43,013 nucleotides of DNA from Gammaproteobacteria bacterium (lineage in GTDB: Bacteria; Pseudomonadota; Gammaproteobacteria; Thiohalomonadales; Thiohalomonadaceae). The stretch spans positions 1 to 43,013 of the forward strand of contig JAPHTQ010000065.1 of the NCBI GenBank assembly GCA_026196275.1, written 5' to 3'. Made by a program: the position numbers and the translations under genes. The notes under the pieces were generated by a model. The model worked only from the letters and a program-made list of their open reading frames with translations, was not told the origin of the DNA and did no database searches. Below, piece by piece: positions 8,310 to 37,677 of the stretch. Numbering within the stretch: position 1 is the first letter of the stretch; each line of letters starts with the position of its first letter.

Positions 8310-11165
8310 TTATTTTTCCGACTGCAGGAAGGCCTGCTCCAGTTCCTGTAACAGCTCCTTATCATCCCAGGGTTTGGTGAGAAACCGGTAGACCCAGCCG
8401 CGGTTGACCGCCTCGGTGACGGTCTCCAGGTCGGCATGGGCGCTGAGAATGATGCGAATAGTGGCCGGATAGAGCTCCTTGATCCGGCTCATGAATTCCA
8501 CGCCGCTCATTTTGGGCATGCGCTGATCGGAGACCACCACCTGTACGGAGTGGCGCGCCATCAGGGTCATAGCCTCATCCGGCTCCGTAGTGGTCAACAC
8601 CCGCCAGCCATGGCCGCGCAGGGTGCGCTGCAGGGCGCGCAGGATGTTCTCCTCATCATCCAGGAACAGGACGGTACGCTGCTCCTCCTTGGGGAAGAGT
8701 TCAGTGATGCACTGCAATCTGTTGTCGATGGGAAAGAGCTGTTCGATCTCCCCGGCAGGCAGTGGCCGGCTAAGGTAATAGCCCTGTACCGCATCGCAGC
8801 CGTTGCGCCCGAGGAAGGTGATGGTCTCGGCCGTCTCCGCCCCTTCGGCGATGGTCTCACTGCCAAGCAGCCGCGCCATGGCGATAACGGTGCGTACGAT
8901 GGCGGCATTGCCCGGATTGCGGATCGCATCGGCGACGAAAGAGCGATCGATCTTGATGAGATCGAAGGTGTAGCGCTGCAGATAGGCCAGCGAGGAGTAG
9001 CCGGTGCCGAAATCATCCAGCGCCAGCCTGACCCCCAGTTCATGTATGGCACTGAGCCGTTGTACGCTCTGTTGCGGATTGGCGATCAACGCCGTCTCGG
9101 TCAACTCCAGCTCCAGCCTCTCCGGCGCCAGTCCGGTCTGCTCCAGGATATCCCGAATGGTGTCGTCCAGCTTCGGGTTGTCAAACTGCCGGGCCGAGAG
9201 GTTGACGCTGATCCGCAGCGGCATGAAACCGGCCCGGTCCCAGGCCACCCCCTGACGACACGCCTCCCGCAACACCCATTCGCCAATCGGCTCGATCAGC
9301 CCGCTCTCCTCGGCCAGCGGAATGAACTCGGCCGGCGAGACCATGCCCAGCTCCGGGTGTTGCCAGCGCACCAGCGCCTCCACCCCGAGCAGGCGACCGC
9401 CCGGCAGCGAGGCCTGCGGCTGGTAATGGAGGCACAGCTCGTTGCGCTCCACTGCCTGGCGCAGCTGGCTGAGCATCATCAGCCGCTTGCTCAGACTGAG
9501 GTTCATCTCCTCGGAGTAAAATTGCAGATTGTTGCGGCCCAGATGCTTGGCGCGGTACATGGCGGCATCGGCGTTGCGCAGCAGGGTATCGGTGTCAGTG
9601 CCATCACGTGGGAAGAGGCTCACCCCGACACTGGCGGTGGTATAGAGTTCATGTTCATCGATCCAGACCGGCTCGGCGATCCTCTGCAGCAGGCGCCGGC
9701 CGATCTCCGCGGCATCCTCACCGTTGTCCGGCTCGGAGAGGACGATCACAAACTCATCTCCGCCGTGCCGTGCCACGGTATCCGCCTCGCGTACCACCGT
9801 CTGGAGGCGCTGCGCGATCGCCACCAGCAGCCGGTCGCCACAGGCATGGCCGAGACCGTCGTTGACGATCTTGAACTGGTCCAGATCGAGAAACAGCACC
9901 GCCGCCGACTTGCCGTGGCGGTGGGCCTGGGCAATGGTCTGTTGCAGGCGCGCCTTGAGCAGCACGCGGTTGGCCAGCCCGGTCAGCTCGTCAAAATGGG
10001 CGCGCCGTTCCAGTTCACGCTCATAGGAGATTCGCTCGCTGATATCACGAAAGGTCAGTACCGCGCCGATGATCACCCCGTTCTCATCCTCAATGGCCGA
10101 TCCGTTCATCTCCACCGGAAGGGGGCCTCCATCCCTGTGCCGCAGTGTTTCGTGGCCCGAATGGTAGTGGCCACCGAACCGCAGGAGTTGCCAGAGACCG
10201 CACTCCTCTTTCGGATGCCCTTTAGCCGCCTTGCAGAGGTGGATCAGCGCGTGCAGGTCCTCCCCCTGCAGCGCCTCGGCGGAGTAGCCGAACAGGGCAG
10301 TGGCCGCCGGATTGCTGAAGGTGACCCGGCCCTGGTCATCCAGGCCGACAATCGCATCGGCGGTCGCATCCAGAATCATCCGCTGTTGCTGCCCCAGCTG
10401 TCGCGCCTGGTGCAGCGCCTGTTGTGTCTCGCCGGCCATCTGGTGCAATTGCCGCTCCCGGCCGATCTCGAAGGCGTGCAGCACGTACCAGATCGCGGCG
10501 CCGGCCGTCAGCGCACAGAGGGCACGAAACAGCTGCACAGGTACACCGGTCTGCTCGAGGAACCATTGGCTGTTCAGGCTCCGTGCCAGCGGGATATCCA
10601 GCGGCGGCACGATCAATCCGGTCAGTAGCCCGTAGATGGCCAGGGCAAGACCGACGACTACCAGTGCGGCCCGCACCCGGCCATAATCGGCCCAGGGTTC
10701 ATCGGTGCGGCTGTAGCGCAGCAGGCCGACCCCGGCCAGCAGGGCGCCGGGCAGGCCGATGGCGTAACGGCTGGCCACGCTGTTCGCGGGCCAGTCCAGC
10801 TGGCTGATGAAAGCGGTCAGCACCACCACCGCGATCGGCACGCTCAGCAGCCAGGGTGAGGCCCAACGGCCCAACCAGGGCTGCAGCAGGCGGCGTGCGA
10901 ACTCCAGCAGTGGCAGGAAGGAGAGCGGCAGAATCAGGCCACGGATGGCATCGAGCAGCGGGGTTCCTCCATGGACCACATTCAGCAGGTCCAGCCACTC
11001 ATTGGTGCCGTGGAGCAGGCCGAACAGCGCCAGCAGCCAGATGATCTGCCCGAGACGGCAACCCTCCACGGGCTTGGGCTGACGCAGGATACTGACCCCC
11101 ATCAGAATGAAGGCGGCGCCATAGACGAAGTAGATCAGTGACATATCCGTGGCCCATGCGGCCAT
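8310..11165 (-). CDS. Membrane PAS-GGDEF-EAL protein with C-terminal receiver
   Basis: A 951-aa protein. The first about 240 residues hold about seven hydrophobic spans. A PAS domain follows (about 265-385, ILDATADAIVGLDD). The GGDEF motif is intact at 468-472, and an EAL domain (EALVRWQHP with Glu596; DDFGTGYSS; KIDRSFV) ends near 815. The last 120 residues are a receiver with acceptor Asp880 (SDQRMPKMSG) and LTKPWD, resembling RpfG-type receivers. Both catalytic sites look competent, so the net direction of cyclic di-GMP turnover cannot be predicted. A receiver at the C-terminus is less common than at the N-terminus. ATG 11165 follows a strong GGAGAGGAGT. A class I cyclic di-GMP riboswitch lies in the leader about 110 bp upstream, implying product feedback. 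Confidence 0.94.
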   Translation of the reverse strand: MAAWATDMSLIYFVYGAAFILMGVSILRQPKPVEGCRLGQIIWLLALFGLLHGTNEWLDLLNVVHGGTPLLDAIRGLILPLSFLPLLEFARRLLQPWLGRWASPWLLSVPIAVVVLTAFISQLDWPANSVASRYAIGLPGALLAGVGLLRYSRTDEPWADYGRVRAALVVVGLALAIYGLLTGLIVPPLDIPLARSLNSQWFLEQTGVPVQLFRALCALTAGAAIWYVLHAFEIGRERQLHQMAGETQQALHQARQLGQQQRMILDATADAIVGLDDQGRVTFSNPAATALFGYSAEALQGEDLHALIHLCKAAKGHPKEECGLWQLLRFGGHYHSGHETLRHRDGGPLPVEMNGSAIEDENGVIIGAVLTFRDISERISYERELERRAHFDELTGLANRVLLKARLQQTIAQAHRHGKSAAVLFLDLDQFKIVNDGLGHACGDRLLVAIAQRLQTVVREADTVARHGGDEFVIVLSEPDNGEDAAEIGRRLLQRIAEPVWIDEHELYTTASVGVSLFPRDGTDTDTLLRNADAAMYRAKHLGRNNLQFYSEEMNLSLSKRLMMLSQLRQAVERNELCLHYQPQASLPGGRLLGVEALVRWQHPELGMVSPAEFIPLAEESGLIEPIGEWVLREACRQGVAWDRAGFMPLRISVNLSARQFDNPKLDDTIRDILEQTGLAPERLELELTETALIANPQQSVQRLSAIHELGVRLALDDFGTGYSSLAYLQRYTFDLIKIDRSFVADAIRNPGNAAIVRTVIAMARLLGSETIAEGAETAETITFLGRNGCDAVQGYYLSRPLPAGEIEQLFPIDNRLQCITELFPKEEQRTVLFLDDEENILRALQRTLRGHGWRVLTTTEPDEAMTLMARHSVQVVVSDQRMPKMSGVEFMSRIKELYPATIRIILSAHADLETVTEAVNRGWVYRFLTKPWDDKELLQELEQAFLQSEK

Positions 11166-11274: not shown

Positions 11275-11369
11275 GCTGGTCCGGCAATCCCGCTGTCATA
11301 GGGCATAGGTATATATGCCCCGTAGACCGGTAACTTTGTGTCCCCGACTTTCGTGCGGGTTTACCCAGC
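11275..11369 (-). promoter_or_regulatory. Cyclic di-GMP-I (GEMM) riboswitch
   Basis: Read on the minus strand, the segment carries the class I aptamer hallmarks in order: P1 GCTGG (11365-11369), GGGTAAACC, a hairpin closed by a CGAAAG tetraloop, the conserved GGGGACACAAAG segment, a second hairpin (GGGCATA / TATGCCC), then ATGACAGCGGGATTGCCG and the P1 partner CCAGC (11275-11279). This parallels the V. cholerae Vc2 aptamer closely. It sits about 110 nt upstream of the GGDEF-EAL-receiver gene. A further hairpin (GCGCAG / CTGCGC) lies just before that gene's ribosome site. No clear terminator is seen, so translational control is more likely, but this is inference. Confidence 0.92.
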
Positions 11370-11425
11370 AAAAATAATACCATAACGGCACCGTGGAGCG
11401 TCCAGTAACCAAAACCCCGCAATTG

Positions 11426-16512: not shown

Positions 16513-18264
16513 TCAGCTTTTTTCCTGAAACTGCATCGCATAAAGGGCGGCGTACTGGCCGTTTTTCTCCAGCAGTTCGGTATGCGTGCCGCTCTCGATC
16601 ATCCGCCCCCTCTCCATCACGACAATCGTATCGGCATGTTCGATGGTCGACAGCCGGTGGGCGATCACCAGCGTCGTGCGGTTTCGCATCACCTGCTCCA
16701 ACGCCGCCTGTATGTGGCGCTCCGATTCGGTATCCAGTGCCGAGGTCGCCTCATCGAGGATGAGGATCGGCGAATCCTTGAGCAGGGCACGGGCAATGGC
16801 CAGACGCTGACGCTGTCCGCCGGAGAGCAGTACCCCGTTCTCCCCCACCATGGTATCGAGCCCTGCAGGGAGTTCGCGGATAAACTCCATCGCATGGGCC
16901 GCCTCGGCGGCGGCAATGATCGCCTCGCGGTCGGCCCCCTCGAGCCTGCCGTAGGCGATGTTGTTGGCAATGGTGTCATTGAACAGGGTGATGTGCTGGC
17001 TGACCAGGGAGATCTGATCGCGCAGATTCGCCAGCGGCAGCTCGCGGATATTCTCGCCATCGAGCAGGATCTGCCCCTGGCTGACATCGTAGAAGCGCGG
17101 CAACAGGCCGACCAGGGTCGATTTTCCGCTGCCGGAGCGCCCCACCAGGGCAACGACCTGTCCCGGTGCGACACGCAGCGAGATCTGCTGCAGCACATCC
17201 CCCTGGCTCTCGGGATAGCTGAAACTGACCCCACGGTACTCCACCTCGCCGGTGGCGCGCGTGATCGCCCGTGTGCCGTGGTCGGGTTCCGCCGGTGAGT
17301 CGATCAGACTGAAGATACTCGCCGAGGCGGCGATCCCGCGCTGCAGGTTGGCGGTCACATTGGTCAGCCGCTTCATCGGCGAGTGGATCATCATCATCGC
17401 GGTGATGAAGGACATGAATGAGCCGACACTCAACGCCCCCTTGTCCACCTCCTGCAGGGCAAAATAGATCACCCCGCCCGAGGCCGTCGCGGCCACCAGC
17501 TCCACCACCGGCACGCTCGCCGCATTGGTCTTGAGCAGCTTCATGTTGAGCATGCGGTTTTTCTCATTCGCCGCCTCAAAACGCCCCGTCTCGTAACCCT
17601 CGCCGCCGAAGGTCTTGACTACACGCTGCCCCTCGATCGCCTCCTCGGCGATCTGGGTGACATCCCCCACGGAGTCCTGAATACGGGTGCTGTAGCGACG
17701 GAAGCGACGGTTGATGACGTTGATCACCTGGGCAATAAACGGTGCGCCAATCATCAATACCAGCGCCAGGCGCCAGTTGAGCAAGAACATCCAGCCCAGT
17801 AGCCCCACCACCGTGACGCTGTCACGTACCAGGATCGTGATCGAGTCGGTAGTGGCGCGTGCGACCTGCTCAACATCGTAGATCAGCTTGGAGAGCAGGG
17901 TTCCGGAGGGGATGGCGTCAAAGAAGGAGACCGGCAGACGCAGCAGTTGACTGAACATCTCGCCGCGCAACACGTTGATCACCTTGCGCGCCACCCAGGA
18001 CATCCAGTATTTGGAGAGGTAGGTGGCAATGCCACGCACCAGAAAGAGTCCGATGAGCACCAGCGGCGCCCATTTAATCACCTCCGGATCCCGCTCCACA
18101 AAGCTGCCATCCATCAACGGCTTGATAAAGGCGGCAAAACCCACCTCGGTTGCCGAGACCACCAACAGCGCCACGATGGAGATGACAAAGGCACGCCAGT
18201 GCGGGACCACATAGCCCAACAGGCGGCGATAGAGACGCTTCCCGTCGGTTGTCGTTGCTGTCAT
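16513..18264 (-). CDS. msbA: Lipid A export ATP-binding/permease protein MsbA
   Basis: A 583-aa ABC exporter half-transporter that flips core-lipid A across the inner membrane as a homodimer. Residues about 20-310 hold six membrane spans. The nucleotide-binding domain has Walker A (GRSGSGKST), the Q-loop (SLVSQHITLFNDT), the ABC signature LSGGQRQRLAIARALL, Walker B (ILILDEATSALD) and the switch histidine in IAHRLST. Length is that of E. coli MsbA. It follows exbD by 5 bp and precedes lpxK by 8 bp, so the three are surely co-transcribed. Confidence 0.97.
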   Translation of the reverse strand: MTATTTDGKRLYRRLLGYVVPHWRAFVISIVALLVVSATEVGFAAFIKPLMDGSFVERDPEVIKWAPLVLIGLFLVRGIATYLSKYWMSWVARKVINVLRGEMFSQLLRLPVSFFDAIPSGTLLSKLIYDVEQVARATTDSITILVRDSVTVVGLLGWMFLLNWRLALVLMIGAPFIAQVINVINRRFRRYSTRIQDSVGDVTQIAEEAIEGQRVVKTFGGEGYETGRFEAANEKNRMLNMKLLKTNAASVPVVELVAATASGGVIYFALQEVDKGALSVGSFMSFITAMMMIHSPMKRLTNVTANLQRGIAASASIFSLIDSPAEPDHGTRAITRATGEVEYRGVSFSYPESQGDVLQQISLRVAPGQVVALVGRSGSGKSTLVGLLPRFYDVSQGQILLDGENIRELPLANLRDQISLVSQHITLFNDTIANNIAYGRLEGADREAIIAAAEAAHAMEFIRELPAGLDTMVGENGVLLSGGQRQRLAIARALLKDSPILILDEATSALDTESERHIQAALEQVMRNRTTLVIAHRLSTIEHADTIVVMERGRMIESGTHTELLEKNGQYAALYAMQFQEKS

Positions 18265-32497: not shown

Positions 32498-32522
32498 ATG
32501 ACATGACGTGACATGCATGTCA
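32498..32522 (+). promoter_or_regulatory. Candidate activator-binding sites (UAS) upstream of the sigma-54 small RNA promoter
   Basis: Two overlapping elements: ATGACATGACGTGACAT (32498-32514) and the perfect palindrome TGACATGCATGTCA (32509-32522). They are centred about 90-100 bp before the predicted transcription start, the usual distance for a sigma-54 activator. The first element recurs (15 of 17 identical, same orientation relative to transcription) upstream of the sigma-54 activator gene. Binding by that activator is inferred. Confidence 0.7.
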
Positions 32523-32578: not shown

Positions 32579-32593
32579 TGGCACAGTAATTGC
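32579..32593 (+). promoter_or_regulatory. Sigma-54 promoter (-24/-12), perfect core match
   Basis: TGGCAC-N5-TTGC matches all ten core positions of the sigma-54 consensus (TGGCAC at 32579-32584, TTGC at 32590-32593). Predicted start of transcription is near 32605. An AT-rich stretch lies between it and the upstream palindromes. Confidence 0.85.
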
Positions 32594-32604
32594 CTCTTAC
32601 TGAG

Positions 32605-32693
32605 TGTGGGTCTGGATAAAGGAATCCCTTCTCCAGACATTCCCTCCACACTGTGGTGTTTTTATCACGCCCCTCTTGGGGCGTGTTTTTTTT
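32605..32693 (+). ncRNA. Predicted sigma-54-dependent small RNA (about 89 nt)
   Basis: The interval runs from the predicted sigma-54 start to the T-run of a strong terminator. No open frame with a ribosome site fits inside it. The RNA would fold into a 5' hairpin (GTCTGGA 32610-32616 with TCCAGAC 32632-32638, inner AAGG/CCTT), a single-stranded pyrimidine-rich segment UUCCCUCC (32640-32647), a small hairpin (CCAC/GTGG) and the terminator hairpin. The unpaired CCCUCC could pair with Shine-Dalgarno sequences. The alternative is a short attenuated leader whose read-through reaches the lipoprotein operon about 430 bp downstream. Confidence 0.7.
32666..32693 (+). terminator. Rho-independent terminator of the predicted small RNA
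   Basis: Perfect 8-bp stem CACGCCCC / GGGGCGTG with a TCTT loop, followed by eight T. Confidence 0.95.
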
Positions 32694-32990
32694 ACCCCGC
32701 CAGCTCCCAGTCCCCATTTGTAAACTTATTTGTACTATCCGCGTCCCCTTGACGCAGCTCCCTATTCCCGGCCATTGGCGGCGTCCATGGGCTGCCCTAT
32801 ATATGCCGCGATCCGGGAAACCCTATGGGCCTGCCTCTCGCCAAGCCGCCAAGTGCGCAAAGAGAAACAAGCCCTTTCTTGGCGAGCTTTGCGGCTTGGC
32901 GAGAGTATTGGATAGGGGTATAGGGCCGTGCACGCCATGAAAATGCAAACAGGGGCGAGTAGTTACCTTATTTTTATATCATACAAAATC
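32694..32990. other. Intergenic stretch without a gene, between small RNA and lipoprotein operon
   Basis: Part of the 686-bp gene-free interval 32435-33120. Open frames here are short, have no ribosome site and cross a long inverted repeat (32835-32905), so I do not call a gene. The flanks of that repeat also show weaker pairing (GCCCTATA near 32794 with TATAGGGC near 32920), as if the whole 32770-32940 block were one imperfect palindromic element. Confidence 0.6.
32835..32905. repeat. Long inverted repeat with 19-bp arms
   Basis: CTCTCGCCAAGCCGCCAAG (32835-32853) and CTTTGCGGCTTGGCGAGAG (32887-32905) are complementary at 18 of 19 positions around a 33-nt spacer. The spacer repeats pieces of the arm (GCGCAAAGAG, CTTGGCGAG). 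The look is that of a dispersed palindromic intergenic repeat rather than a terminator (no T-run). Confidence 0.9.
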
Positions 32991-33006
32991 TGGCATATAT
33001 GTTGCT
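32991..33006 (+). promoter_or_regulatory. Candidate sigma-54 promoter of the lipoprotein-rhodanese operon
   Basis: TGGCAT-N5-TTGCT matches the sigma-54 core at 9 of 10 positions with correct spacing and a preceding C. The start would be near 33017, leaving a leader of about 104 nt. No private activator site is evident; the sites at 32498-32522 may serve at a distance. Confidence 0.65.
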
Positions 33007-33041
33007 CTTGATATAGGGTCACAGAACAGTGTTGAAATCCA

Positions 33042-33079
33042 TATCTTTTGTGGCATTATCTTTAGGTGCCACAAAGATA
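33042..33079 (+). promoter_or_regulatory. Stem-loop in the leader of the lipoprotein-rhodanese operon
   Basis: TATCTTTTGTGGCA (33042-33055) pairs with TGCCACAAAGATA (33067-33079) with one bulged T and an 11-nt loop. It lies between the predicted start and the lipoprotein ribosome site and has no T-run, so it is more likely a stability or control element than a terminator. Confidence 0.6.
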
Positions 33080-33120
33080 AAAACCAACCCGAAATCATTC
33101 GGGTAACAGATGGAGGAACC

Positions 33121-33390: not shown

Positions 33391-34044
33391 ATGAAGATCA
33401 AAAAACTCATTACATCCACCGCCCTGATGGCATGCCTTTCATTCACGGCCGCCACTGCCTCGGCAGCTGATGTCGCTGTGAAGATCACCCCGGATATGGC
33501 CCATGCCATGGTGATGCACAACGGCAAGCAAGCCCATATCATGCGCAATCAGGATCAGAAAAATAAGGTCAACCCCGCCTTCGCCAAAACCTCCCGCAAA
33601 TGTCCGCCCTTCTGCATCAAACCGATGGAGCTGGGTCACGGTGTCGAAACCCTGGGCGAGCTGGAGGTTATCCACTATGCGGTCAAGATGAGCCACGGGG
33701 ATGACTCCATCATTCTGGTCGACAACCGCACCCCCGACTGGCACGCACGCGGCTCCATCCCCGGCGCTATCAACATCCCCTTCACCAAGATGAGCCGTGC
33801 CAAGGGCGCCGATGCCCTGACCATCGCCGAAACCCTGGAGACTCTGGGTGCCAAGGAGACCGGCAAAGGCTGGGACTTCAGCAACGCCAAGACCGCCGTC
33901 TTCTTCTGCAACGGCATGTGGTGTGGCCAGTCCCCCGCCGGTATCGCCGGTCTGCTCGCAGAGGGCTACCCGGGTGACAAGATCAAATGGTATCGCGGCG
34001 GCATGCAGAGCTGGGAGATTCTCGGCCTGACCACCGTTAAGTAA
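33391..34044 (+). CDS. Periplasmic rhodanese-like protein with extended CNGMWCGQS loop (paralog 1)
   Basis: A 217-aa protein with a Sec signal peptide (cleavage near ASAAD, residue 26). The N-terminal region carries KCPPFC (70-75). The rhodanese domain spans about 80-215: VDNRTPDWHARGSIPGAINIPFT matches the CH2A region, and the active loop is C173-NGMWC-GQS with a second cysteine at 178. Classical single-domain rhodaneses such as PspE have a shorter loop (CNAGRQS). Sulfurtransferase or persulfide chemistry is expected, with a possible internal disulfide. AAAGGAG precedes the ATG. It is followed by a close paralog, about 60 percent identical by eye, and is probably driven by the sigma-54 site at 32991. 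Confidence 0.9.
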   Translation: MKIKKLITSTALMACLSFTAATASAADVAVKITPDMAHAMVMHNGKQAHIMRNQDQKNKVNPAFAKTSRKCPPFCIKPMELGHGVETLGELEVIHYAVKMSHGDDSIILVDNRTPDWHARGSIPGAINIPFTKMSRAKGADALTIAETLETLGAKETGKGWDFSNAKTAVFFCNGMWCGQSPAGIAGLLAEGYPGDKIKWYRGGMQSWEILGLTTVK

Positions 34045-34064: not shown

Positions 34065-34079
34065 TTGGAGGATTCAAGA

Positions 34080-34757
34080 ATGAGTAAGAAACCGTTTATC
34101 CGTACCCTCGGCACCCTGATTGCCGCCGCCGGCATCGCCGCCCTCAGCGGTTGCGCCACCACTGCCCCGTCCGACAAGGACATTGCAGTCAAGATCACCC
34201 CTGAGATGGCCAGCGCCACCGTCATGCACAAGGGTGAGAAGGTTACGCTGATGCGTAACCAGGATCAGAGCAACGAGATCAACCCGGCGTTCCAGATGAC
34301 CTCACGCAAGTGCCCGCCCTTCTGCATCAAGCCAATCAAGCTGCATGAAGGTGTAGAGACTGTGGCTGAGCTGGAGATGATCGATGCCCTGGAGCGTATC
34401 GCTGCCGGCGACACCACGGTGATGGTGGTGGATAACCGCACCCCCGACTGGCACGCCCGCGGCTCCATCCCGGGCTCAGTGAACATTCCGTTCACCAAGA
34501 TCAGCCGTGCCAAGGGTGCTGATGACCTCTCCATCGCCGAGTCCCTGGAGAAGTTCGGCGCCAAGGAGACCGCCAACGGTTGGGACTTCAGCAACGCCAA
34601 GACCCTCTACCTGTTCTGTAACGGTATGTGGTGCGGCCAGTCCCCTGCAGGTATCGCGGGTCTGCTCTCTGAAGGCTATCCCGCGGAGAAGATTAAATAC
34701 TACCGCGGTGGTATGCAGGATTGGGAGGTACTGGGCCTGACCACCTTCAAGCCCTGA
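34080..34757 (+). CDS. Rhodanese-like lipoprotein (paralog 2)
   Basis: A 225-aa protein. ATG 34080 has TGGAGG at 8-base spacing; an in-frame TTG at 34065 lies on the ribosome site itself. It has a lipoprotein signal with lipobox LSGC (Cys25), unlike its neighbour, so one copy is soluble and the other membrane-anchored. The remainder is a close copy of paralog 1: RKCPPFCIKP (77-82 region), DNRTPDWHARGSIPG, IPFTKISRAKGADDL, and the active loop Cys180-NGMW-Cys185-GQS, then KYYRGGMQDWEVLGLTT. Tandem duplication followed by change of the export signal is the simplest history. A strong terminator closes the operon 24 bp later. Confidence 0.92.
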   Translation: MSKKPFIRTLGTLIAAAGIAALSGCATTAPSDKDIAVKITPEMASATVMHKGEKVTLMRNQDQSNEINPAFQMTSRKCPPFCIKPIKLHEGVETVAELEMIDALERIAAGDTTVMVVDNRTPDWHARGSIPGSVNIPFTKISRAKGADDLSIAESLEKFGAKETANGWDFSNAKTLYLFCNGMWCGQSPAGIAGLLSEGYPAEKIKYYRGGMQDWEVLGLTTFKP

Positions 34758-34837: not shown

Positions 34838-36226
34838 CTAATCCGCGCCAACTTCACGCAAACGCTGCACATAACGATAGAGGGTCCGTTCGCTCACACC
34901 CAACTGCTGTGCAGCGCGGGCACGGTGGCCCTCACACTGTTCCAGGGCACGCAGTACCGCGGTCTCATTGAGGCGTCCGTTGCGCCGCCTGATCAGATTA
35001 TTGAACTGCTCCCCACCCCGTTGCGCAGTGCATCCCGAGGCCTCCTTCACGCTCTCTTCGGCTGACGCTGCCACGAAGCCCTCAGCGGCGTCTGACTCCA
35101 GCAAAATATGCTCCGGACGCAGCAGCTCCTCGCCATAGGCCAGTATTGCCGCGCGCTCGATGATATTGCGCAACTCCCTGACGTTACCCGGATAGTGGTG
35201 GGAGAGCAGTGTCTCGATAACATCCGGCGACAGGGGCACGAAACGATCCCCCTCCTCTATCTGAGTGAGGAATTTCTCCGCCAGTGCGGGAATATCATCG
35301 GGACGATCACGCAACGGCGGAATGTTCACCGGAAAGGCGGAAAGGCGATAGTAGAGATCCTGGCGGAAGGCGCCGTTTTCCGACATCTCCTTGAGATTTT
35401 TATTGGTGGCGGCAAGCACGCGTACATTGACCTGGATGTAATCCGTGCCGCCCAGGCGGCGAAAGGTGCCGGTCTCCAGCACCCGCAGCAGCTTGGTCTG
35501 CAGTGACAGGGGCAACTCCCCGATCTCATCGATAAGCAAGGTACCGCCATCGGCCATCTCAAACAGCCCTTTTTTGCGGCTGTTGGCGCCGGTAAAGGCC
35601 CCCTTTTCGTGACCGAACAGCTCACTCTCGATCAGGTTCTCACCCAGGGTGCCGCAGTCAACAATGACAAATGGCATGTTGGAGCGGTTTGAATACTGGT
35701 GCAGGTATTGCGCTACCCGCTCCTTGCCGACACCGCTCTCGCCCAGCAGCAGTACGCCGGTCTGGGTGGGCGCTACCCGCTGCAACAGACTGGTCAGGCG
35801 CAGCATCGGGCGCGAACGGCCGATAAGAATCGCATCGTCGCCCGGTTTGCTGACCGGGTAGATATACTCGCCGACGTAGATCACATTACCCTGATGATCG
35901 AACAGCGGATTGGAGTGCAGCTGCACATGCTCCTCGCCACCATGACGATCATAATGGATATGCATGACCTGTGTGGCCTGGGCGGTTTCAAACACCGTCT
36001 CCAGCGGACAGTGCTCTCCGTGTTCACTGCAGGGGGCATCGACATGATGGGAAACCTCATAGCAGTGACGACCCACCACATCCTCGGGACGTGAATGGCC
36101 GTAGTGCTTGAGGTAATTACGATTGGCAGCAATGATTTTGTAATCCCGATCGATCACCACAAAGGGATCGGGCAGGATATTGATGATCTGTTCACAAGAC
36201 GGTTTGGTAATGTCATTGTCCGTCAT
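34838..36226 (-). CDS. Sigma-54-dependent transcriptional activator (PAS, AAA+, Fis-type HTH)
   Basis: A 462-aa enhancer-binding protein. Residues about 12-125 are a PAS domain holding an unusual Cys/His cluster (Cys55, Cys66, Cys73 with His54, 60, 61, 69, 72 in [13 protein letters not shown] and HCPL), suited to metal, iron-sulfur or redox sensing. The AAA+ domain has Walker A GESGVGKE (162-169), the sigma-54 contact loop GAFTGA (209-214), and Walker B LLIDEI (230-235). The C-terminal Fis-type HTH is near 420-460 ([19 protein letters not shown]). ATG 36226 is used because GGGGA precedes it; the longer frame starts with TTG 36244. There is no receiver domain, so the PAS is the likely sensor. 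It sits between rhodanese genes and sqr, and likely controls them. Confidence 0.94.
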
Positions 36227-36259
36227 ATCGGTGTCCCCGTTCAACGTTGCCAGCCATAC

Positions 36260-36402: not shown

Positions 36403-37677
36403 CTACTTAAGTTTCATAATCCCCAGCGCCTTGAGAATATATTTCTCAAAGACCGGCTCATTAGAGCCCTTTTTCATCTTGCTGATGAAATATTTCTCGA
36501 AGGCCACCTTGGCCATGTGGACCCATTTTCCCTTTTTCATCCAGGAGACATTACGCGGCGGGATTTGCGGCATGGCGACAAAAGCCGCGCCGGTGTCGCC
36601 CATGTCTGCCAGACAGATGGCGTTCCAGGTTGCCTTCTGATCCGCCGCCTTGCCGGCAATATCGTTGGCGATATTGTGGGCCGTGGCGAGCACCATGGAC
36701 TCGATCATATAACCGGTTTTCGGCGTGCCGGTCGGCACCGGGGTAGGCTCTACCGGCGGAATGGCAATGCCGACGCCAATGCCGTAGATGTTCTTCCACT
36801 TCGGATTCTGCTGGAAATCGTTGACCTTGACGAAACCACGCGGGTTGACCAGGTCCTCGCCTACGGCGTTGACCGCATCGACGCCCTTGAACGCCGGCAG
36901 CATCATGGAGTACTTGAACTCAAGTTCGTGGGTCTTCTTCACCTCACCCTTGTCGTCCAGCTCCTCGACGGTCATCTTGCCGGGCTCGACCTTGGTGGTC
37001 CTGGCGTTGGTGATCCACTTGATGTGGCGATCGCGCATCTCAGACTCTAGCATTCCCTTGGAGTCGCCCACGCCACCCAGGCCCAGATGGCCGATATAGG
37101 GTTCGGAGGTAACAAAGGTCATCGGCACCCGGTCACGCATCTTGCGCTTGCGCAGGTCGGTATCCATGATGAAGGCAAACTCGTAGGCCGGACCGAAGCA
37201 GGAGGCAAACGGCGCGGCACCCACGACAATGTGGCCCGGATCCTCGACGAACTGCTGCCACTTGTCGTAGGCCTCTTCGGCGTGGTCGGTGGTGCAGACG
37301 GAGACAGTATTGCCGGTTCCGGGTCCCATGCCCTCGACCTCATCGAACACCAGCTTGGGGCCGGTGGCGAGGATCAGGTAGTCGTATTTAACCTCGCTAC
37401 CGTCGGCCACGATGACGGTATTCTCATCGGGCTTGATCTCGGTCGCCGCCTGAGGGATAAAGTTGATACCCTTGCGCTTGAGGTAGGGCTCCAGCGGGAA
37501 GGAGATATCGCTACGGGTACGCCAGCCCACGGCAACCCACGGGTTGGAGGGGACGAAAGTAAAGTTCTCCTTGTCGGAGATCACGGTAACCTCATGCTCC
37601 TTGCCCAGAATCTCGCGCGTGTCGTACGCGGCGGGTAAGCCCCCTGTGCTGGCCCCGATGATAACAACATGTGCCAT
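36403..37677 (-). CDS. sqr: Sulfide:quinone oxidoreductase
   Basis: A 424-aa membrane-peripheral flavoprotein that oxidises sulfide to polysulfide or sulfane sulfur and passes electrons to quinone. The FAD-binding start is VVIIGASTGGLPAAY. The three cysteines fall at 128, 160 and 355, the places of Cys128, Cys160 and Cys356 in the Acidithiobacillus ferrooxidans enzyme. Other shared blocks are FVPSNPWVAVGW, SCFGPAYE, SEPYIGHLGL, PPVEPTPVPTG and the amphipathic C-terminus with VAFEKYFI. Length is normal. Transcribed alone: a sigma-54-like promoter lies 63-78 bp before the start and a terminator follows. Neighbouring rhodanese genes suggest that the sulfur product is handled in the periplasm. 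Confidence 0.95.
   Translation of the reverse strand: MAHVVIIGASTGGLPAAYDTREILGKEHEVTVISDKENFTFVPSNPWVAVGWRTRSDISFPLEPYLKRKGINFIPQAATEIKPDENTVIVADGSEVKYDYLILATGPKLVFDEVEGMGPGTGNTVSVCTTDHAEEAYDKWQQFVEDPGHIVVGAAPFASCFGPAYEFAFIMDTDLRKRKMRDRVPMTFVTSEPYIGHLGLGGVGDSKGMLESEMRDRHIKWITNARTTKVEPGKMTVEELDDKGEVKKTHELEFKYSMMLPAFKGVDAVNAVGEDLVNPRGFVKVNDFQQNPKWKNIYGIGVGIAIPPVEPTPVPTGTPKTGYMIESMVLATAHNIANDIAGKAADQKATWNAICLADMGDTGAAFVAMPQIPPRNVSWMKKGKWVHMAKVAFEKYFISKMKKGSNEPVFEKYILKALGIMKLK

Follow-up and report, generated by a model that had tools for sequence, protein, structure and literature searches.

The predicted small RNA unit and its neighbours

The window analysed here is a contig of 43 kb from a gammaproteobacterium whose genome (G000) has 2.54 Mb. 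It carries on its forward strand a sigma-54 promoter, a short predicted RNA and an intrinsic terminator, followed by a small lipoprotein gene and two rhodanese-domain genes on the same strand and by the genes of an activator and a sulfide:quinone reductase-like protein on the other. The promoter, TGGCACAGTAATTGC at 32579-32593 (+), has the full -24/-12 consensus TGGCAC-N5-TTGC, and a scan of the 43 kb finds two sites of this type with 0.34 expected. From the usual distance of 11-12 nt past the GC element, the RNA is predicted to start at A32603 or G32604 and to run over about 90 nt, at 32603-32693 (+); homologues of it are found in 12 genomes. The fold of 32602-32692 reaches -40.3 kcal/mol, compared with -22.5 +/- 3.0 for shuffled sequences (z -5.9). 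The terminator at 32666-32693 (+), an 8-bp stem CACGCCCC-TCTT-GGGGCGTG at 32666-32685 with eight T at 32686-32693, is present in all the homologues. The 5' part is predicted to form a stem-loop at 32603-32652 (+), with a closing stem 32603-32609/32646-32652 and an inner hairpin 32610-32615/32633-32638; in this fold AUUCCCU is left unpaired by the closing stem, and the C-rich strand is mostly unpaired. The sequence-only reading of this DNA had described a perfect sigma-54 promoter, a perfect 8-bp terminator with eight T and an RNA of about 89 nt with a strong 5' hairpin, lying alongside an activator and sulfur genes, and our analysis bears out each of these observations.

The lipoprotein gene (56 aa) starts about 430 nt downstream, and the two rhodanese-domain genes that follow it (33391-34044 and 34065-34757, both +), arranged in the same way in genome G013, are presumed to belong to the same regulon as the RNA. 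A second sigma-54 site, TGGCATATATGTTGC at 32991-33005 (+), precedes this small lipoprotein/rhodanese unit, which consequently does not need the promoter of the small RNA. The activator gene lies at 34838-36244 (-) and is adjoined by the gene for a FAD-dependent sulfide:quinone reductase-like protein at 36403-37677 (-), a neighbourhood found also in G007, G019 and G006. Two further features of the window may be mentioned: the 5' region behind the second sigma-54 site (32991-33120) holds a long inverted repeat, TTTTGTGGCATTATCTTTAGGTGCCACAAAGATAAAA, at about 33046-33083, and a c-di-GMP-I riboswitch (67.3 bits) occurs at 11280-11375 (-), upstream of a 951-aa ORF at 8310-11165.

Conservation in the family

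When 95 related genomes were searched with BLAST, eight further members of the family gave matches to the 3' half of the RNA (32641-32694). The promoter lies outside the matched part, and yet in every case a sigma-54 site precedes the conserved core by 53-72 nt. A covariance model built on the RNA alone, again without the promoter, added three members (G001, G015 and G006), each with a sigma-54 site, that of G006 being TGGCAC-N5-TCGC with a mismatch at -12. The unit of promoter, RNA and terminator is thus present in 12 of the 20 genomes of the order, all of them of one family, with RNA lengths of 90-111 nt, and the sigma-54 site stands at the equivalent place in 12 of 12, degenerate at -12 in G006.

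The constant part of the RNA across the homologues consists of UUCCCUCC-ACACUGUGGUGUUUUU and the terminator. Alignments and unpaired probabilities define a core, UUCCCUCCACACUGUGGUGUUUU at 32641-32663 (+), which combines a C/U-rich strand resembling an anti-Shine-Dalgarno sequence (CCUCC at 32643-32647) with a ACUGUGGUG-U tail, and which is probably a seed followed by a U-rich stretch of the Hfq type. The C/U-rich strand varies as UUCCCUCC, UUCCCCUCCUUCC, CUCCCUCC and similar, each followed by ACACUGUGGUGUUUUU, and across genera neither the promoter spacer nor the letters of the terminator are as well conserved as the 23-nt core as a whole. The 5' half differs among the homologues in both length and sequence; a hairpin is usual there, and for several of them the predicted fold is unlike that of the RNA of the window. 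Covariation of the closing stem in the homologue alignment is not above that of shuffles, and the same is true for an alternative small hairpin, CCAC-ACU-GUGG, which competes with it; a swap test of the 5' arms gave p = 0.13. The covariation analysis proposed along with the sequence-only reading gave a weak result: the helix of the 5' stem has no significant covariation, and the support comes from the conservation of sequence. Since the closing stem is without such support and has a competitor, our claim is confined to a conserved sequence core and does not extend to a proven structure.

Among the matches read from 369 genomes of the class we found no sigma-54-linked homologue outside the family, and no plasmid copy of the RNA was found. 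The class-wide search had apparently reached 60 genomes; the weak matches read from outside the family turned out to be mostly a different CCUCC element, located upstream of rplM. Many orders of Gammaproteobacteria have this second CCUCC-loop element directly in front of rplM-rpsI (L155 3590-3760, that is G000:C59, about 17590-17750; L099-L124; L156-L161). Its parts are a sigma-70-like promoter TTGACA-N17-TATATTAG, a core CTCCTCCATCCTCCTTTGGTGG and a terminator. It is below the Rfam gathering score, with RF02278 as the best match (34 bits, E 1.5e-5), and may be an unlisted gammaproteobacterial counterpart of RF02278 or a leader or attenuator of rplM. One more element, CCTCCTTCCCTTCCACAGG with a terminator, occurs in G007 (L050 1501-1601; G007:C1:355539-355639, minus strand); it is unlike both the RNA family and the rplM element, and a sigma-54 site was not seen at it.

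The FisR-like activator and the control region

The protein encoded at 34838-36244 (-) has a PAS domain with Cys61, Cys72 and Cys79, an AAA+ domain of sigma-54 activators with GAFTGA and a Fis-type HTH. The three regulatory-domain cysteines, with spacing of 11 and 7, are invariant in 24 aligned proteins, which include orthologues and paralogues, the aligned paralogues that carry them being at 40-44% identity. This spacing matches that of Cys53, Cys64 and Cys71 in Cupriavidus FisR. We call the activator FisR-like by its domain make-up and cysteine spacing. In Cupriavidus and Acinetobacter the FisR regulon comprises a sigma-54 activator that adjoins sulfide-oxidation genes and turns them on upon sulfide (PMC7315123, PMC9774590), and the locus described here is alike in having a sigma-54 activator next to sulfide-oxidation genes. 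Cupriavidus FisR senses reactive sulfur species via three conserved cysteines (reviewed in PMC9774590); as a point against the likeness, the FisR of A. baumannii is without them (PMC7315123). We found no small RNA of this regulon in the FisR literature that was searched. A paralogue of the activator, with about 44-46% identity and the same three cysteines, is encoded at G000:C53:28926-30185 (minus; L089), on the same contig as rpoN.

Orthologues of the activator (65-81% identity, E < 1e-189) occur in exactly those 12 of the 20 genomes of the order that bear the RNA; the other eight have neither, and the next-best matches are at 48% identity or less. Such a perfect split has p = 1/125970 when counted by genome and p = 1/462 when counted by genus (six with both, five with neither). 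In four of the 12 genomes (G001, G005, G009 and G015) the RNA and the activator are on different contigs, so their association is not a matter of linkage only. The RNA was not recognised in 27 genomes of other families that have an orthologue of the activator, which means that the activator does not require the RNA; on the sequences compared, the latter seems to have been added within the family to a sigma-54 regulon that is older and wider.

A predicted enhancer, consisting of half-sites TGACATGAC and a palindrome TGACATGCATGTCA, lies at 32499-32522, at a distance of 57-80 bp before the sigma-54 site. TGACA/TGTCA is observed 55 times in the 220-bp regions that precede the 12 promoters, with 4.8 expected from mononucleotide shuffles, and every one of the 12 genomes has at least two of these half-sites upstream of the promoter. 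The searches by which the homologues were collected used neither the sigma-54 site nor the half-sites, and the comparison of sequences confirms that the preservation of the unit in 12 genomes, with its promoter and enhancer sites, goes beyond chance. In several genomes the activator gene, too, is preceded by these half-sites, as would be expected of the binding site of an activator that acts also on its own gene, and their presence at both places strengthens the link between the activator and the RNA. Together with the exact co-occurrence this puts the connection drawn by the sequence-only reading on firmer ground, and the FisR-like protein is likely to be the regulator of the RNA.

A scan of the order for the combined enhancer and promoter pattern returned the known RNA promoters and scattered matches, so that no wider regulon is defined by it. 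In other families TGACA/TGTCA half-sites also stand upstream of sigma-54 sites beside orthologues of the activator. The sigma-54 sites and half-site clusters at L182, L183, L185, L186 and L187, in other gammaproteobacterial families, precede genes of apparent small exported proteins, which suggests that they may represent a wider regulon of the activator.

A probable sigma-54-dependent RNA with a putative anti-Shine-Dalgarno seed

Several sigma-54-dependent, enhancer-activated small RNAs are known, such as Qrr in Vibrio, GlmY/GlmZ in enterics, and CrcZ and NrsZ in Pseudomonas; each is encoded by a stand-alone gene, about 100 nt long or more, that has a -24/-12 promoter, sites for an activator upstream and a terminator, and each provides a signalling activator with an RNA arm. 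The unit described here has the -24/-12 promoter, the upstream half-sites and the terminator of this class, and likewise no conserved reading frame, but its activator is a PAS three-cysteine FisR-like protein and not LuxO, GlrR, CbrB or NtrC, and its seed is CCUCC-like. At the gathering score Rfam gave nothing for the RNA of the window or for its 11 homologues, and Qrr, GlmY/GlmZ, CrcZ and NrsZ were not among the matches to E 10 in Rfam 15, which may not include all of them. The sub-threshold matches are Hrs13 (E 0.0006), RF02278 (E 0.0017), ncS54, anti-hemB and suhB/mmgR. Those to RF02278, Hrs13, ncS54 and anti-hemB have 21-25 bits and E 0.0006-0.0044 for a short stretch, with gathering scores of 43-52 bits; RF02278, the Betaproteobacteria toxic small RNA, scores 25.4 bits in the window and 25.7 bits in L035 against a threshold of 50 bits, and RF00519 (suhB/mmgR) 22.2 bits against 41. 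All of them being well below the gathering scores, we regard these matches as likeness and not as membership.

The likeness to RF02278 and to the Burkholderia RNAs Hrs13, ncS54 and anti-hemB consists in a CCUCC-rich strand, a GGUG-U segment and a GC-rich terminator, and the differences are the sigma-54 promoter, the larger 5' stem-loop and the ACUGUGGUG of the core. With the alpha-proteobacterial suhB/mmgR (RF00519), ar14/NfeR1 and 'cuckoo' RNAs our RNA shares an anti-Shine-Dalgarno motif, CCUCC, which a hairpin presents in unpaired form, although it has one C-rich strand where they have three CCUCCUCCC loops, and NfeR1 has a sigma-70 promoter in place of sigma-54. NfeR1 of Sinorhizobium, an anti-Shine-Dalgarno small RNA, masks the ribosome site of ntrB and thereby silences that mRNA (PMC10746234), and by analogy we infer a similar action at ribosome sites here. 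The sub-threshold resemblance to the CCUCC RNAs of beta- and alpha-proteobacteria thus supports an anti-Shine-Dalgarno mechanism, and not membership in their families.

The promoter, terminator, fold, conservation, enhancer sites and co-occurrence with the activator, with genes for RpoN and Hfq encoded in the genome, are read from the DNA itself, and the best reading of them, at a probability of roughly three in four, is a stand-alone gene for a trans-acting small RNA, sigma-54-dependent and activated by the FisR-like protein, with a seed resembling an anti-Shine-Dalgarno sequence. The sigma-54-dependent small RNA proposed from the single sequence is supported, as promoter, RNA and terminator are kept as a unit in the 12 genomes.

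Among other explanations the best surviving one, to which we give a small share of probability, is an RNA that titrates a protein, that is a sponge for Hfq or CsrA/RsmA, and does not act as antisense. The conserved U-rich tail would fit it, and so would the GGA motifs that several homologues have in their variable 5' hairpin and the precedent of CrcZ, reported in PMC4063720 as a regulator of Hfq. However, the GGA motifs have no conserved number or loop position, the repeated A-rich Hfq motifs of the CrcZ kind are absent, and the best-conserved part is a single C-rich strand with its tail, which is seed-like. An attenuated 5' leader, the alternative allowed for by the sequence-only reading, is about half as probable as that: the promoter would serve the lipoprotein/rhodanese unit, with the terminator at 32666-32693 read through under some condition, in agreement with the same-strand lipoprotein start about 430 nt downstream and the rhodanese genes 3' of the RNA in G013. 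Apart from the downstream unit having its own sigma-54 site at 32991, the next gene differs among the genomes, being the activator, in convergent orientation, in all five members of genus g8 (G007, G014, G017, G018 and G019) and others in G001, G005, G009 and G015, and a conserved alternative antiterminator is absent; promoter, RNA and terminator travel together as their neighbours change, which excludes a leader as a general explanation.

That the transcript is an inert spacer, conserved through its promoter and terminator alone, is very improbable: it is short and no target was found, but no part of the unit is better conserved across genera than the 23-nt core that separates promoter and terminator. 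Least credible of all is an mRNA for a very small protein: GTG-initiated frames do run through the RNA in some genomes, but among the 12 RNAs neither a start codon nor a reading frame keeps its position relative to the core, indels disrupt the frame and the terminator follows directly, in line with the earlier judgement that no credible reading frame exists.

For the favoured trans-acting RNA the following course of events can be proposed. The FisR-like activator would bind the TGACA/TGTCA sites 50-180 bp upstream and switch the gene on, the trigger being probably sulfane sulfur (persulfide or polysulfide) that modifies its three PAS cysteines; sigma-54 RNA polymerase would then make from the RNA's own gene a transcript of about 90 nt (90-111 nt in the relatives), predicted to end at its own terminator. 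The mostly unpaired UUCCCUCC strand, complementary to Shine-Dalgarno sequences, and the ACUGUGGUG-U tail would act in trans and, most likely together with Hfq, cover the Shine-Dalgarno regions of target mRNAs and so block their translation during sulfide exposure. Our target search was confined to adjacent genes. In four genomes of genus g8 (shuffle fraction 0.03-0.07), and not in the window (0.54), the RNA pairs better than shuffles with the fisR ribosome site, so a feedback on the activator would be at most lineage-specific. The fuller picture, to which we would give slightly less than an even chance, is a sulfane-sulfur-responsive RNA arm of a FisR-type sigma-54 regulon, found wherever the activator orthologue occurs in the family, which silences mRNAs at their Shine-Dalgarno sites upon sulfide oxidation and in one genus also damps the activator mRNA.

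We suggest that this is a new small RNA family whose function is of a known kind and whose input is probably new, sulfane sulfur acting through a FisR-like activator. Responses of bacteria to sulfide and persulfide have been described so far as protein regulators inducing oxidation enzymes; as the switch of the RNA matches the binding site of a nearby activator resembling a sulfur sensor, sulfide is probably answered in this group of sulfur-oxidizing bacteria by a small regulatory RNA besides proteins. If this is true, the physiology of sulfur oxidizers would gain post-transcriptional control through a conserved RNA that is tied to a three-cysteine FisR-like activator, and persulfide sensing would be connected with translation control in a way open to testing, for which the locus offers a compact set of promoter, enhancer and activator.
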